From NCBI GenBank assembly GCA_018058095.1, contig JAGPCO010000019.1:1-64000 (forward strand): a stretch of 64,000 bases of DNA. Direction: 5' to 3'. Below, piece after piece: positions 2,313 through 64,000 of the stretch. This DNA comes from Kofleriaceae bacterium (GTDB taxonomy: Bacteria; Myxococcota_A; Polyangia; Haliangiales; Haliangiaceae). A program made the position numbers and the translations under genes. Each line of letters opens with the position of its first letter. Position 1 is the stretch's first letter. The notes below the pieces were generated by a model, which was given only the letters and a program-made list of their open reading frames with translations, was not told where the DNA came from and made no database searches.

Positions 2313-3329
2313 ATGGCGCGTATCCGAATCGTCGACGAGTGGGTCCGCAGCCCAGCCTCGCCGCCGACCCACTACCGGACCGTGATGGTGGTCGCGGAGA
2401 AGTGGGCCGAGCAGCGCGTGCTGATGCGGGCCTACGCCGAGTGCCGCGACCAGATCCGCCCGACCATCGTCCTGCACGGGGTCGAGCTGGCCATCGGCCC
2501 GGCTGGTATCGACGCCCACGGCCCCTGGGGCATCCACGTCATGCCGCCGAGCGACGGCCGGGCCCAGGAGCTGGCCGACCAGCTCGACGGGGCTGCCCGC
2601 CGGCTGGCCGGCTCCAAGGGCAACCCTCCCCGCCTGGCCGACGAGGAGAGCGCGTTCGACCGCAAGCCGACGCACAACTGGTCGCCCGGCACCCCGCGCG
2701 ACCTGGCCGAGCCGCTGGCGCCGACGATGGTGCCGGGCGGGCGCGACTGGCCGCCGACCAACGCCCCGTACCAGCCGCCGGTGGCGCACCTGCCGGCCGC
2801 CGCCAGCGCGGTCCCGGTCCGCGCTGCCGCCGCCGAGCTGGTCGGGTCCGGGCCGGCCATGCCGCCGGTGGTGGCGTCAGCGCCGGCCAACCCGAGCCTG
2901 CGCCGCACCCCGCTGCCGATGCGGCACGAGCCCCGAGCGCGCAAGCCGACCGGGCCGATGGCGCCGACCGGGGCCGGCTCGGGAGCCCTGAGCGGCGCCC
3001 GCACGGCCCTCGGCTACCAGTCGGGCGCCGGGGCGCAGTCGGCCGTGGTCCGGCTCGGCCTGTCGCCCGCCGTCTCGGCCCGCCTCGGGCGCCTGGTCGG
3101 CCAGGTCGTGCCGGCCGACTTCCAGGTCACCCACGCCGAGCGCAGCGTGCTCAACGCCATCGGCGAGCAGACTCAGCTGACCGCGCGCGCCATCGGCCAG
3201 ATGGTCGGCGTGACCGATCCGGTCGGCTGGATGGAGCAGCTCATCTCCAAGCTCGAGTCCTTCGGCATCGAGCTGATCGAGCCGGGCGACGCCCGCGGCG
3301 GCGAGCCGACCTACGTCATGCGGCGCTAG
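2313..3329 (+). CDS. Hypothetical protein with a winged-helix-like C-terminus
   Basis: 338 residues from the ATG at 2313; the frame is open further upstream but that part overlaps the TPR gene's 5' region and has a non-coding character. The N-terminal ~80 residues form a compact alpha/beta region (VMVVAEKWAEQR, VLHGVELAIGPAGI). A Pro/Ala-rich low-complexity stretch of about 150 residues follows. The last ~90 residues look helical (VTHAERSVLNAIGEQTQLTA, PVGWMEQLISKLESFG) and could be a winged-helix fold. I do not recognise a family. The final TAG stop codon is part of the CTAG that begins repeat R2. Confidence 0.6.
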   Translation: MARIRIVDEWVRSPASPPTHYRTVMVVAEKWAEQRVLMRAYAECRDQIRPTIVLHGVELAIGPAGIDAHGPWGIHVMPPSDGRAQELADQLDGAARRLAGSKGNPPRLADEESAFDRKPTHNWSPGTPRDLAEPLAPTMVPGGRDWPPTNAPYQPPVAHLPAAASAVPVRAAAAELVGSGPAMPPVVASAPANPSLRRTPLPMRHEPRARKPTGPMAPTGAGSGALSGARTALGYQSGAGAQSAVVRLGLSPAVSARLGRLVGQVVPADFQVTHAERSVLNAIGEQTQLTARAIGQMVGVTDPVGWMEQLISKLESFGIELIEPGDARGGEPTYVMRR

Positions 3330-3443
3330 CAGGCTGCTGAAAGACCCGTGCCGGCGGCATTTGCCGACGGGACGGGCTCCGTGTTTTCAGCAGGCTGCGA
3401 GATCAGAAATGACTAGCAGGATGCTTCTTCGGCATCCTGCTAG
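3326..3443. repeat. CTAG-bounded inverted-repeat element R2
   Basis: 118 bp with CTAG at both ends (3326-3329, 3440-3443). Inside the CTAGs the ends read CAGGCTGCTGAAAG on the left and CAGGATGCCGAAG inward from the right, an imperfect terminal inverted repeat. The right part is itself a perfect hairpin: a 13-bp stem at 3412-3424 and 3432-3444 with a 7-nt loop (TTCTTCG). A second copy of the CAGGCTGC end lies at 3390-3397. The left CTAG supplies the TAG stop of the preceding gene. As RNA the hairpin could also act as a terminator, although no U-tract follows. Confidence 0.8.
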
Positions 3444-3542
3444 TCCGGACCCGCCGCGGACGGCGAATCCGGACCGGCGACATCGCCTGTGGTCCTGGCG
3501 TCTGGCCTGTGGTACACGCGGTCGTTTCTCAAGGAAGGCCCC

Positions 3543-19560: not shown

Positions 19561-20268
19561 ATGCACCCAACCCACGTCGCACCCGGCTCGACCGGCGCAC
19601 CGCCCGACCGCACCCTGTACGCCGAGGCCGGCTGGATCAGCCCCTGGGTCTTCCACGCCCTGGTCGCGCTCGAGGAGAAGCAGCTGCCGTACCGGCTCGA
19701 GGTGCTGCCGCTGCCGCTCCCACCCGCCGCGCGCGACGGGCTCGAGGCCGCGGCGGTCCTCGGCAAGGTGCCGGTCCTGGTCGACGGGCCGCTCGCCTTC
19801 TCGGAGTCGCTGGCGATCTCCGAGTACCTGGCCGAGCGGTACCCGACACCTGACCACCCCCGCATCTTCCCGGCCGACCTCGGGCACCGTGCCCGTGCGC
19901 GCCAGGTCATGTCGTGGCTGCGCACCGACCTGCACGCGCTACGCGAGGCCCGGCCGACCACGGCGGTGTTCGGCCCGCCGGTGGCCACCCCGCTGTCACC
20001 GGCGGCGATGGCCGACGCCAGCACGCTGATCCGGGTCGCGCAGCGTGTGCTGGCCGAGCGCCCGGCCGACGCCGGGTTCTGCATCGCCGACGCCGACCTG
20101 GCGCTGGCCGTCATGCGGCTGGTGCGCAGCGGCGATCCGGTGCCGGCCGACGTGCGCGGGTTCGCCGAGGCGGTGTGGGCCCGGCCGTCGGTCCAGGTGT
20201 TCCTGCGCCTGCGCGCCCAGGCCGAGGCCGCCGCCGGCCGGCCAGGGTCGACAGCGCCGCCGGGATGA
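19561..20268 (+). CDS. yfcF: Glutathione S-transferase, YfcF-like
   Basis: 235 residues. The N-terminal thioredoxin-like domain is SPWVFHALVALEEKQLPYRL ... KVPVLVDGPLAFSESLAISEYL, with the ES pair for glutathione binding. The helical domain reads RARARQVMSWLRTDL, EARPTTAVF and CIADADLALAVMRLV, which I recognise from E. coli YfcF almost phrase for phrase. YfcF-type enzymes have glutathione transferase/peroxidase activity and contribute to oxidative stress defence in the cytoplasm. It probably shares a message with the preceding glycosyltransferase, and the fusion enzyme gene starts 16 nt downstream. Confidence 0.85.
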   Translation: MHPTHVAPGSTGAPPDRTLYAEAGWISPWVFHALVALEEKQLPYRLEVLPLPLPPAARDGLEAAAVLGKVPVLVDGPLAFSESLAISEYLAERYPTPDHPRIFPADLGHRARARQVMSWLRTDLHALREARPTTAVFGPPVATPLSPAAMADASTLIRVAQRVLAERPADAGFCIADADLALAVMRLVRSGDPVPADVRGFAEAVWARPSVQVFLRLRAQAEAAAGRPGSTAPPG

Positions 20269-20284
20269 CCCAGGATGGTCGGGC

Positions 20285-22333
<2,049 letters not shown>

Positions 22334-22432
22334 GAGTCCGACTCCGCAACGACTCCGGCGAAGCGGGGAGTCTGGGTCACGGTCCAGGGTGAAGAACACC
22401 CCTCAGGGTCCGCACGTCCAGGCCCGGGCGGA

Positions 22433-22505
22433 CTGCTGTGGGCAGGCGCTGCCCCTCTCCACGCCCGTCTCCACCCGCGCCACGCCCTGCGCCTGTCCAC
22501 AGCAG
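22433..22505. repeat. 17-bp stem-loop inside the 381-bp element
   Basis: Arms 22433-22449 (CTGCTGTGGGCAGGCGC) and 22489-22505 are reverse complements except for one G-T pair, separated by 39 bp. This is a strong inverted repeat, possibly the end pair of a nested older insertion. Confidence 0.75.
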
Positions 22506-22569
22506 GAGGCTTCAGCCGACGCCCGGGCCGGTCCACGCCGCACACCCCCGCCGGCGTCTGCACCCCTCG

Positions 22570-22620
22570 TTGTTCAAGCACAGACATCCCTGACACTTCT
22601 GCCCACGGACATCCCTGACA
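22570..22620 (-). mobile_element. Remnant insertion-sequence end with duplicated TGTCAGGGATGTC motif
   Basis: Read on the minus strand from 22620, the sequence starts TGTCAGGGATGTCCGTGG. About 25 bp later comes GTGTCAGGGATGTCTGTGCT, then TGAACA. A TG terminus with repeated TGTCAGGGATGTC-type blocks is typical of IS21/IS481-group ends (family knowledge; not verified by search). No transposase remains. The first base abuts exactly the point where the 90-bp repeat copies at 22621-22710 and 63724-63813 stop matching. Confidence 0.5.
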
Positions 22621-22710
22621 CTCCACGCGCGCGATGACGGTGCCCCGCCTCGACGAGGCCTGAGCGAGTCCGGCTTTCGCGGCGCCCAGAATACGGGGTC
22701 GGACTCCTAG
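22621..22710 (-). repeat. 90-bp dispersed repeat, copy 1
   Basis: Read on the minus strand it starts CTAGGAGTCCGACCCCG and ends GCGCGCGTGGAG. By eye it differs from 63724-63813 at about six of 90 positions. The two copies are in opposite orientation, 41 kb apart. Confidence 0.85.
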
Positions 22711-46436: not shown

Positions 46437-46495
46437 CTAGCAGGCCGCTGAAATTCGAAAATGCCTGGCAGGATGCCTCTTCAGCATCCTGCTAG
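46437..46495. repeat. CTAG-bounded inverted-repeat element R4
   Basis: 59 bp with CTAG at both ends (46437-46440, 46492-46495). Inside, the ends are CAGGCCGCTGAA and, inward from the right, CAGGATGCTGAA: 10 of 12 identical as terminal inverted repeats. The right half also folds alone (GCAGGATGC / GCATCCTGC). It makes up nearly all of the 73-bp gap between DUF302 and the next lipoprotein gene. Confidence 0.8.
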
Positions 46496-46504
46496 GCTGC
46501 GCCC

Positions 46505-61548: not shown

Positions 61549-62639
61549 GCGGCGGCCCGCTGATCGGCCCCGGACCGCGCCCACCGGGCGGCCCGCGCCA
61601 GCTCGGGCGCACCGGCCGCACGGTCGAGCCGATCGCCTTCGGCACGTCCGGCGTCGGCGGTGACCGCTTCCGCGGGGTCGAGCCGCGCGACGCCCAGCGC
61701 GCGTTGTGCCACGCGCTCGAGCACGGCGTCGACCTGGTCGACACCGCGCTGCGCTACGGCCGCGGCCAGAGCGAGCAGCTGGTCGGCGAGGCGGTGCGCG
61801 AGCTGCGCGCGCGCGACCGGGTCGTGGTCGCGACCAAGGTGCCGCCGGCCGACGACGTCTTCCCGGCCGCGGCCAACCGCCTGGGCGCGGCGTTCGCGCC
61901 GGCCTACCTGCAGGCCCAGGTCGAGCAGTCGCTGCGCAACCTCAAGCTCGAGGTGATCCCGCTGTGCCAGCTGCACGTGTGGCGCGACGCCTGGCTCGAC
62001 GACGGCGGCTGGCCCGAGCTGCGCGCGACCATGGTCCGCCTGGTGAGCGAGGGCAAGGTGCTGCACTGGGGCGTGTCGGCCAACCACGGCAGCGTCGACG
62101 ACTGCGTGCGGGTGATGGCCGATCCGCTGGTGACCACGGCGCAGCTGGTGTGGAACCTGTTCGACCGCCGGGCCGAGCCGGCGCTGGCCGCGGCCGCCCA
62201 GCACGGCGTGGCGGTGCTGGCCCGGTGTGTGCTCGACGAGGGCGCGCTGGGTGGCCAGCTCGGCGCCGGCGCCCGCTTCCCGATCGACGACTTCCGCACC
62301 GCGTACTTCGCGCCGCCGCGGCTGGACGAGCTGGCGCTGCGCCTGGCCGCGCTGTGCGAGTTCGTGACCGAGACGCCGCCGGCGGCGTCGTCGACGCCGG
62401 AGGCGACCGACCTGGCGGCGCGCGCGGCCCGGGCCCGGCACGAGCCCGAGGTGCGCGCGGTCGACGAGCTGGCCATCCGCTTCGCGCTGTCGCCGCCGGC
62501 GGTCGTCGCCGCGGTCATCGGCATGCGGACGCGGGCCAGCGTCGACCGCAACCTGCGCCTGCGCGGCGCCGCGCCGCTGTCGTCGACGCTGCTGAGCCAG
62601 CTGGCCAGCCACGCCTGGGACAAGGACTGGACGCGGTGA
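61545..62639 (+). CDS. Aldo/keto reductase
   Basis: 364 residues from GTG 61545. TIM-barrel AKR: LGRTGRTVEPIAFGTSGVGGDRF, the catalytic Asp and Tyr in DLVDTALRYGRG, Lys in VVVATKV, and His in CQLHVWRD. The ending AIRFALSPPAVVAAVIGMRTRASVDRNL gives the NADPH-binding loop. It reduces carbonyls with NADPH in the cytoplasm; substrate unknown. A 4-nt overlap links it to both neighbours in a three-gene operon. Confidence 0.88.
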   Translation: MSGGPLIGPGPRPPGGPRQLGRTGRTVEPIAFGTSGVGGDRFRGVEPRDAQRALCHALEHGVDLVDTALRYGRGQSEQLVGEAVRELRARDRVVVATKVPPADDVFPAAANRLGAAFAPAYLQAQVEQSLRNLKLEVIPLCQLHVWRDAWLDDGGWPELRATMVRLVSEGKVLHWGVSANHGSVDDCVRVMADPLVTTAQLVWNLFDRRAEPALAAAAQHGVAVLARCVLDEGALGGQLGAGARFPIDDFRTAYFAPPRLDELALRLAALCEFVTETPPAASSTPEATDLAARAARARHEPEVRAVDELAIRFALSPPAVVAAVIGMRTRASVDRNLRLRGAAPLSSTLLSQLASHAWDKDWTR

Positions 62640-63727
62640 GCTCCGGCGACGGCGCCCGCCGCGGCCGCGGCGCCCTGTCCAACCCGACCGGACGGTTCGA
62701 GCCGACCCGGCGCGAGGGGTTCGCCGATGGCTGGGCCCAGGCCGACCCGGCGCTCGCCGACGACGGTGAGCTGCCGCGGCTGCCGACGGTGGTCACGACC
62801 GAGCACGCGCGCTCGATCATCAGCCGCAACGACTCGCCCGACGTGCCGTTCGACCAGTCGGCCAACCCGTACCGCGGCTGCGAGCACGGCTGCGTGTACT
62901 GCTTCGCCCGGCCCAGCCACGGCTACCTCGGGCTGTCGTCGGGCCTCGACTTCGAGACCCACATCGTCAGCAAGCCCGACGCGGCCCGCCTGCTGCGGGC
63001 CGAGCTGAGCCGCCCGAGCTATCGCTGCCAGGTGCTGGCGATGGGCACCAACACCGACCCGTACCAGCCGGTCGAGCGCGACCTCGGCCTGACCCGCGCC
63101 ATCCTCGAGGTGTGCCTGGAGTTCGCCCAGCCGGTCTCGATCGTCACCAAGAGCGCGGCCATCACCCGCGACGTCGACCTGCTGGCGGCGCTGGCCGCGC
63201 GCAACCTGGCCTCGGTCTACCTGTCGATCACCACGCTCGACGCCGGCCTGGCCGCCACGCTCGAGCCACGGGCGGCCCGGCCGCACCGGCGCCTGGCCAC
63301 CCTGCGCCAGCTGGCCGACGCCGGCGTGCCGGTCGGCGTGTTGTCGTCGCCTATGATCCCGGCCCTCAACGACCACGAGCTCGAGGCCATCCTCGAGGCC
63401 GCGCGTGATCATGGCGCGCGCGCCGCCGGCTACACCCTGCTGCGCCTGCCGCACGACGTGAAGGTGCTGTTCACCGAGTGGCTGCACGCCCACGTGCCCG
63501 ACCGGGCCGAGCGAGTCCTGGCTCGCCTGCGCGACGCCTACGGCGGCGCGCTGTACGACAGCGCGGTCGGCGTGCGCGGCGTCGGCCGCGGTCCGGTCGC
63601 CGACCTCATCAACCAGCGCTTCGCCCTGGCCTGCCGCCGGCTCGGCCTCGGCGACGAGCGGGTCGCGCTCGACACCACCCAGTTCCGCCCCCCGCCGCGG
63701 CCCGGCCAGCTCCCGCTGTTTCGCTAG
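62636..63727 (+). CDS. Radical SAM protein (PA0069 / Rv2578c, spore-photoproduct-lyase-like family)
   Basis: 363 residues from GTG 62636, overlapping the previous stop by 4 nt. The iron-sulfur motif is C82-x3-C86-x2-C89 (RGCEHGCVYCFARPSHGYLG). Other blocks are VLAMGTNTDPYQPVER, VSIVTKSAAITRDVDLLAAL, YLSITTLDAGLAATLEPRAA and VLSSPMIPALNDHELEAIL. The family is annotated as radical SAM of the PA0069 type, distantly similar to SplB, and has no defined reaction. The TAG stop codon is the CTAG that starts the repeat at 63724. Confidence 0.9.
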   Translation: MSSGDGARRGRGALSNPTGRFEPTRREGFADGWAQADPALADDGELPRLPTVVTTEHARSIISRNDSPDVPFDQSANPYRGCEHGCVYCFARPSHGYLGLSSGLDFETHIVSKPDAARLLRAELSRPSYRCQVLAMGTNTDPYQPVERDLGLTRAILEVCLEFAQPVSIVTKSAAITRDVDLLAALAARNLASVYLSITTLDAGLAATLEPRAARPHRRLATLRQLADAGVPVGVLSSPMIPALNDHELEAILEAARDHGARAAGYTLLRLPHDVKVLFTEWLHAHVPDRAERVLARLRDAYGGALYDSAVGVRGVGRGPVADLINQRFALACRRLGLGDERVALDTTQFRPPPRPGQLPLFR

Positions 63728-63813
63728 GAGTCCGACCCCGAATTCTGGGCGCCGCGACGGCCGGACTCGGTCAGGCCTCATCGCGGCGGGGCACCGTCAT
63801 CGCGCGCGTGGAG
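63724..63813 (+). repeat. 90-bp dispersed repeat, copy 2
   Basis: Begins CTAGGAGTCCGACCCCG and ends GCGCGCGTGGAG. It matches 22621-22710 in reverse orientation with about six differences. It lacks the IS-end-like sequence seen beside copy 1. The radical SAM gene stops inside its first four bases. Downstream, to 64000, no second repeat end is visible before the window stops. Confidence 0.85.
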
Positions 63814-64000
63814 GGCGTGGAGTGCGGCGGTCCAGCAGCTCGGCCGGGTCGATCGGCCCGCCAGCGCGGAGCCAGCCCTCACGCGCGAGCCAGGTCTTCG
63901 GGGCGCTCAACGGGGAGCCCGCGGGAGGCGGCGACCCGTCGATGACCCAGACACCCGACTTCGTCGGGTGCCATCGACTCGACGACCAGCGGTCGGGCTC
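63797..64000 (-). CDS. Possible C-terminal part of a gene running off the window
   Basis: On the minus strand one frame is open from the window edge to TGA at 63797-63799, 67 codons, with almost all third positions G or C as in neighbouring genes. It reads HPTKSGVWVIDGSPPPAGSP, then TWLAREGWLRAGGPIDPAELL. The last ~6 codons lie inside the 90-bp repeat, so the native C-terminus may have been replaced by the repeat. No family is recognised. A second frame of the same strand is also open for a shorter distance, so this call is tentative. Confidence 0.35.
   Translation of the reverse strand, partial: EPDRWSSSRWHPTKSGVWVIDGSPPPAGSPLSAPKTWLAREGWLRAGGPIDPAELLDRRTPRPPRAR

Follow-up and report, generated by a model that had tools for sequence, protein, structure and literature searches.

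The window, by which we mean the whole stretch of 64,000 nucleotides analysed here, belongs to contig C162 of a draft Kofleriaceae genome (7,565,629 bases or 7.57 Mb, 227 contigs). It holds two copies of one repeated element: a short copy that begins at the stop codon of an upstream gene, and the right end of a full-length copy at the window's edge. The features are as follows, in window coordinates.

20045..22333, plus strand: upstream ORF with GFO/IDH/MocA and NAD-epimerase domains; start uncertain; its stop is the TAG of the element-border CTAG
22330..22710, plus strand: non-autonomous copy of the CTAG/Y1-transposase family, 381 bp, from repeats, genome matches and alignment to the full-length copy
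22330..22346, plus strand: left terminal repeat, CTAGGAGTCCGACTCCG; the upstream ORF stops at its TAG (22331-22333)
22355..22573, plus strand: what survives of the hairpin region at the left end; 90% identity to positions 197-413 of the 1357-bp copy
22433..22505, plus strand: inverted repeat inside the parental hairpin region, with arms 22433-22449 and 22489-22505
22574..22620, plus strand: remnant of an IS481/IS3-type insertion-sequence end, 47 bp, with a doubled GACATCCCTGACACT motif that extends to 22622
22621..22710, plus strand: right-end block; the full-length copy on contig C29 has the same right end at 90 of 90 bases
22694..22710, minus strand: right terminal repeat, CTAG-terminated (CTAG at 22707-22710), from repeat comparison
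61664..63727, plus strand: Radical_SAM-domain open frame of uncertain start, ending in a stop TAG (63725-63727) inside the CTAG border of the second copy
63724..64000, minus strand: right end of a full-length copy, which extends past the window to about contig position 65075
63800..64000, minus strand: C-terminal part of tnpA of this second copy (whole gene C162:63800-64612)

The terminal repeats of the short copy (22330-22346 and 22694-22710) are 17 bp long with one mismatch and have CTAG flanks on either side, as a first-pass annotation of this DNA had described; the family's element ends have the sequence CTAGGAGTCCGAC. The internal stem that it had pointed out (22433-22449/22489-22505; 17 bp, 94% complementary) and the duplicated motif resembling an insertion-sequence end (22579-22597/22604-22622; 95% identity between the units) were also present, as was a 90-bp block common to both window copies, in which 22621-22710 and 63724-63813 agree at 84 of 90 bases when one of them is inverted. 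Alignment to the full-length copy covered positions 1-29, 197-413 and 1268-1357 of the latter. One hairpin arm (positions ~30-196 of the 1357-bp copy) is absent from the window copy, the tnpA gene is missing, and the 47 bases between blocks 197-413 and 1268-1357 (22574-22620) are foreign to the full-length copy. As in a MITE, the ends are kept, the transposase gene is gone and a gene-bearing parent resides in the same genome. Rfam models at gathering scores gave no match within the window.

Allowing up to 3 mismatches, the 43-mer 22580-22622 occurs at one other site, inside the copy on contig C9, where it adjoins a frame with an rve_3 domain (2.9e-17). This frame, a transposase fragment, matched transposase models of IS481 and IS3 with scores under the cut-offs. 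Given the missing parts and the 43-mer beside the rve_3 frame, we read 22330-22710 as a non-autonomous derivative that bears a scar left by a second insertion sequence. The earlier idea of nested structures, formed by repeated insertion into an older repeat, thus stands for the single foreign 47-bp remnant but not for the stem-loop, which is part of the long hairpin region common to longer copies, nor for the 90-bp block, which likewise belongs to the parent element. The object at 22330-22710 is an ordinary deleted transposon copy; its family is unusual and testable. A sequence resembling the insertion-sequence end motif was also seen in another genome (G051, locus L188), directly upstream (from about 926) of homology to a RAYT-like gene or transposase.

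The first-pass annotation had taken the element to be non-autonomous, with longer transposase-encoding relatives, and had held that a lack of further copies would make it a local inverted duplication. Further copies proved numerous. Across the whole genome the end motif (up to 2 mismatches) was found at 39 + 24 = 63 sites, compared with 3 + 3 = 6 for the reversed control, and the 381-bp query, with 40 of its 253 first-look candidates scored, matched at least 92 times at E ≤ 0.01, a recurrence far beyond chance. The longer relatives exist as well. Our reference full-length copy (C29:31247-32603, 1357 bp) contains a 272-aa ORF (L061:1013-1831), and a transposase search of 56 genomes returned at least 45 own-genome matches that were 75-100% identical (45 of 91 candidates scored), some of them being two pieces of one copy divided between contigs. 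Relatives of the transposase were found in 30 of the 55 other genomes, with no more than 47% identity among the matches listed. A search with the end motif containing one N position (up to 1 mismatch) gave 53 matches in the own genome and 0-2 per genome in the 55 others (reversed control 0-5), and in 15 same-genus genomes the motif was not found above control level. Since the end motif is abundant only in its own genome and stays at control level elsewhere, the family has expanded in its own lineage.

Wider searches added little. One of 34 matches from a pattern search of a contig collection that possibly does not include the own genome encodes a relative (38% identity), plasmids searched at E ≤ 1e-5 gave none, and solved structures searched by sequence gave no relevant match. 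Five older own-genome copies (C14:3285, C70, C133, C147 and C114:12874; 75-83% protein identity) had no intact terminal repeat in their printed borders; CTAG occurs near one border in three of the five (C133 right, C147 right, C114 left; loci L133, L134 right and L135 left). We discarded CTAG borders as a general rule of relatives, as no clear common CTAG border was seen by eye at the homology edges of 14 G051 and 3 G022 loci. We also discarded CACCCGGCGAAGCCGGGTG as a genome-wide REP: its one match in 464 kb (up to 4 substitutions) is located inside the element.

The 272-aa protein matched Pfam Y1_Tnp with 25.5 bits, above the cut-off of 23, and the NCBIfam equivalog for REP-associated tyrosine transposases (REP_Tyr_transpos) with 31.7 bits, below the cut-off of 80. 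Y1_Tnp was the only Pfam match at E ≤ 1, with no C-terminal helix-turn-helix. The sequence has the HUH motif as HLH, and in YVLFN a tyrosine with an asparagine at +4. In TnpA-REP, N119 sits at +4 from the catalytic tyrosine. A figure legend names N119 as an essential residue of TnpA-REP (PMC6006769). The main family contains 14 intact Y1 ORFs. A set of 16 intact ORFs, retained by a length filter from 21 found and including two older copies, gave a dN/dS of 0.225 (mean dN 0.059, mean dS 0.260), and in 14 copies identity was 95.9, 96.3 and 85.6% at codon positions 1, 2 and 3; tnpA is under purifying selection. The genome also contains a second Y1 transposase family of ~350 aa (L233:1306-2358, L230, L232, L235, L236; copies 93-96% identical in DNA) with no CTAG borders; in L233 a repeated AAAAGGTCGTGAAGACGTGAACAGGGG-type sequence precedes the gene.

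Upstream of tnpA, positions 23-378 of the full-length copy (L061:570-925) fold as one hairpin of ~350 nt, with -133.2 kcal/mol compared with -91.1 +/- 4.25 for 100 shuffles (z -9.9). Identity among 24 of 27 candidate copies (three shorter ones were excluded) was 98.5% in the outer arms, 96.1% in the inner arms, 82.1% in the stretches between arms and 88.1% in the apex, so that the outer arms are better conserved than the third codon positions of tnpA (85.6%). Covariation was uninformative since the arms barely vary, with a double change in 3 of 106 pairs only. Because the arms are conserved above tnpA itself, sequence conservation points to a cis-acting role of the hairpin, which may lie in transposition or in tnpA control. 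The last 60 nt of the element ends folded no better than shuffles (z-scores -0.29 to 1.06), and any terminal hairpin is weak.

To describe the borders independently of CTAG, element ends were defined by their inner sequence; the fetched loci contained 61 such core-defined ends (38 left, 23 right). CTAG lies near 53 of them, and 8 have none within 30 bases outside. At two of the 53 (L011 and L139) CTAG is present and the terminal repeat itself is missing. The three bases following CTAG at the 53 ends were GAG in 34, CAG in 10 and one of seven other triplets in 9; a CTAG that stays constant beside variable terminal bases of the element itself fits a target or cleavage site. Among the 42 ends that do not touch the other repeat family introduced below, G precedes CTAG at 34, compared with 40 of 110 outward background readings (p 7e-7).

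Some copies of the element adjoin the CTAG of another palindromic repeat family: at several ends, sequence such as CAGCATCCTG lies directly against CTAG. This is the end of a different family, which has CTAG at its ends at many sites without the element, so that at these junctions CTAG most likely predates the element. The second family (REP2; CTAGCAGG(N)TGCTGAA...CAGCAGCCTGCTAG) consists of units of 31 bp and of composites about 120 bp long, with 245 pattern matches in the own genome, 31 in genome G023 and 35 in G046; no enzyme that would mobilise it was found. Within the window it occurs at 174, 3326-3444, 6483 and 46437-46496, where the sites at 3326 and 6483 double as the stops of coding-like frames. 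REP2 is unlikely to be a non-autonomous partner of the Y1 transposase, as G023 has its 31 REP2 matches and no transposase relative (E ≤ 1e-8). Three junctions (L032, L045 and L157:13386) have a doubled CTAGCTAG, as if a CTAG-bearing element had been joined beside an existing CTAG. One point against the insertion reading is that comparison of the window locus with 15 same-genus genomes gave no empty site; homology ends near the gene end, at 71-80% DNA identity. Insertion at CTAG is well supported.

Both window copies share their border CTAG with the stop codon of a neighbouring gene, and we quantified this coincidence for the family. As background, 400 kb (L151-L170) contained 98 CTAG sites compared with 278 expected, an approximately threefold depletion, and 29 of 97 tested sites (14 of 54 without the second repeat family) ended a coding-like frame (minimum 60 codons, GC3 ≥ 0.85, GC3 > GC1 > GC2, GC2 ≤ 0.7). 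Searching with the end motif itself gave a different set, also of 61 ends, of which 49 have an intact TAG; it is a coding stop at 25 of these 49. The background proportion was 29 of 194 readings (Fisher 4e-7), or 14 of 108 in the alternative background set (Fisher 9e-7). Core-defined ends with CTAG coincide with a stop in 24 of 53 cases, as do two further ends whose border is slightly displaced (the right ends of C69 and C218). Each insertion contributes two ends, so that a share of about one half is close to the most that could be reached.

In seven copies (C29, C14, C9, C1, C218 and two on C162) both ends are readable and a single contig spans both flanks; all seven, a set chosen after the pattern had been noticed, adjoin a stop on one side. 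At its right end C1 has CTTG. C27 was excluded for its rearranged left end and a right end reading CTGG; a stop lies at its outer left end as well. It is one of nine unscorable interior copies with an end lost or rearranged (C27, C36, C104, C125, C186, C189, C199, C213, C227), of which C104, C125, C186 and C189 have surviving ends that are not at stops. The proportion of 7 of 7 exceeds that of non-repeat background CTAG sites (14 of 54; Fisher 2.7e-4). In the GCTAGC context 4 of 8 background sites are already stops, and the comparison with these gave p = 0.05; the stop-codon bias is thus partly explained by sequence context.

Of 37 core-defined ends not scored as stops, 20 have a coding-like gene that ends towards the element within 200 bases. 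A Pfam scan of ten adjoining ORFs gave eight with a domain above cut-off, one just below and one with no domain. An HflX-like GTPase precedes the C213 copy; of its 15 same-genus orthologues, 14 reach residue 291 or beyond of its last 300 and stop no more than 14 residues further on; for an M16 peptidase before a C67 end, 12 of 15 orthologues reach residue 296 or beyond and then stop within 18 residues. Of 12 orthologue loci of the window gene, 11 align up to a point no more than 42 bases from its stop, and their tails differ in length. Since same-genus orthologues stop close by, the alignments in the three cases tested indicate that the element sits at the native gene end and that the gene has not been truncated.

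We consider it highly probable that 22330-22710 is an internally deleted copy of a ~1.36-kb RAYT-like transposon of the Y1/HUH type that inserts at CTAG. The full-length layout is CTAG, inverted terminal repeat, an imperfect palindrome of ~350 nt, tnpA (266-273 aa), inverted terminal repeat and CTAG. The transposase would cut single-stranded DNA at CTAG, a site that may be selected when the foot of the end repeat pairs with it through its TAG, much as the GTAG guide of TnpA-REP contributes to the selection of CT, and joining of the element to a target CTAG would leave CTAG on both sides. The element would land at gene ends with the stop codon staying intact, because CTAG is rare in a genome of 74% GC and a considerable part of its sites are TAG stops or ends of the other CTAG-tagged repeat. 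In the REP systems described, selection of the cleavage site involves the GTAG foot; altering it changed the cleavage site in a Marinomonas system, and a CTAG foot lowered cleavage in a Stenotrophomonas system (PMC8266576). As CTAG holds both CT and TAG and is self-complementary, one word could serve as guide, cleavage site and target. We put forward only tentatively, as somewhat less likely than its converse, the stronger proposal of a self-moving RAYT-type element in which CTAG has all three functions, which homes to TAG stops and spares genes, and which would be a living form of the RAYT/REP ancestor.

For the stop codons taken by themselves, there is about an even chance that the coincidence reflects survival and not targeting: the element would insert at any CTAG, insertions within genes would be lost, and stops would form a large share of the harmless sites. 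Such a process is compatible with the rest of the explanation above and is in keeping with the depletion of CTAG (98 sites vs 278 expected, 29 of 97 being stops) and with the stops at 4 of 8 GCTAGC sites, while the 7 of 7 scorable copies, set against 14 of 54 non-repeat sites (Fisher 2.7e-4), may speak for more than survival. The remaining alternatives concern the mover itself. IS630-type elements duplicate TA within CTAG, and an element moved by a DDE transposase of such a family, with the Y1 gene as a passenger, would likewise show CTAG borders and inverted repeats. We regard this as improbable in view of the 14 intact main-family Y1 ORFs and the dN/dS of 0.23 in the set of 16, and because the rve_3 fragment of the C9 copy is the only DDE-type piece among the copies read. 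Slightly less probable again is a domesticated RAYT with ordinary REP repeats and no self-movement. The protein is indeed RAYT-like and the repeats have TAG at their foot, but many gene-bearing copies have distinct flanks, which also speaks against segmental duplication including flanks, and the family is not above control level in the 15 same-genus genomes. Only two copies lie within the window, as would be expected of a local inverted duplication or a chance repeat; the many copies beyond it (at least 92 matches, 63 ends vs 6 in the control, at least 45 transposase matches) make this reading negligible. The deleted copy of a CTAG-inserting Y1 transposon is our preferred explanation.

Several known systems resemble the element in part. 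IS630-type MITEs have a CTAG context, inverted repeats and a DDE transposase; the first two are shared by the element, and the copies read have no DDE transposase beyond the rve_3 fragment. With IS200/IS605 the element shares the Y1 HUH catalytic type and a short target word; it differs from the members described as lacking terminal inverted repeats (PMC2817692) by its 17-bp inverted repeats with CTAG on both sides. Like RAYT/TnpA-REP with GTAG REPs or REPINs, as these are described (PMC2817692, PMC8266576), it has a Y1/HUH enzyme and a TAG-ending tetranucleotide at the foot of its end repeats. In RAYT/TnpA-REP (class 2), GTAG- or GTGG-headed REPs flank the gene, whereas the ends here carry CTAG. 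A 2010 study (PMC2817692) observed no multiple copies or changed locations of RAYT genes; relative to its account, the gene here is multi-copy, under purifying selection and placed between inverted repeats. GTAG REP ends are reported to often supply the TAG stop to flanking ORFs (PMC3733652), and the stop-codon association is therefore not new in kind.

The element also resembles TIRYT/TIRtron elements, described as RAYT-like Y1 genes bounded by inverted repeats and not by GTAG REPs, as here; some of those repeats are partly self-complementary and some TIRs form repeat families (PMC3733652). By that description, CTAG borders, insertion at CTAG and stop codons, and the conserved 350-nt hairpin set the present element apart. 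The TIRYT motif GGGGWSAS, which only some TIRYTs are said to carry (PMC3733652), is one position off GGGGTCGG of our element, and 20 of 26 TIRYTs are assigned to subclass 2.1 with a C-terminal helix-turn-helix, a domain that Pfam did not find in the present transposase. Among the open-licence papers searched we recognised none on CTAG-bordered elements of comparable kind.

RAYTs have been discussed as tamed transposases that spread REP repeats and were not seen to move themselves, and a multi-copy RAYT-like element touches on how REPs reach gene ends. With its defined ends, target and conserved hairpin, such an element opens excision, pairing of the guide and choice of the target to direct tests. 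It further suggests a way in which, where a genome is GC-rich, a target of only a few bases can direct insertions to the ends of genes.
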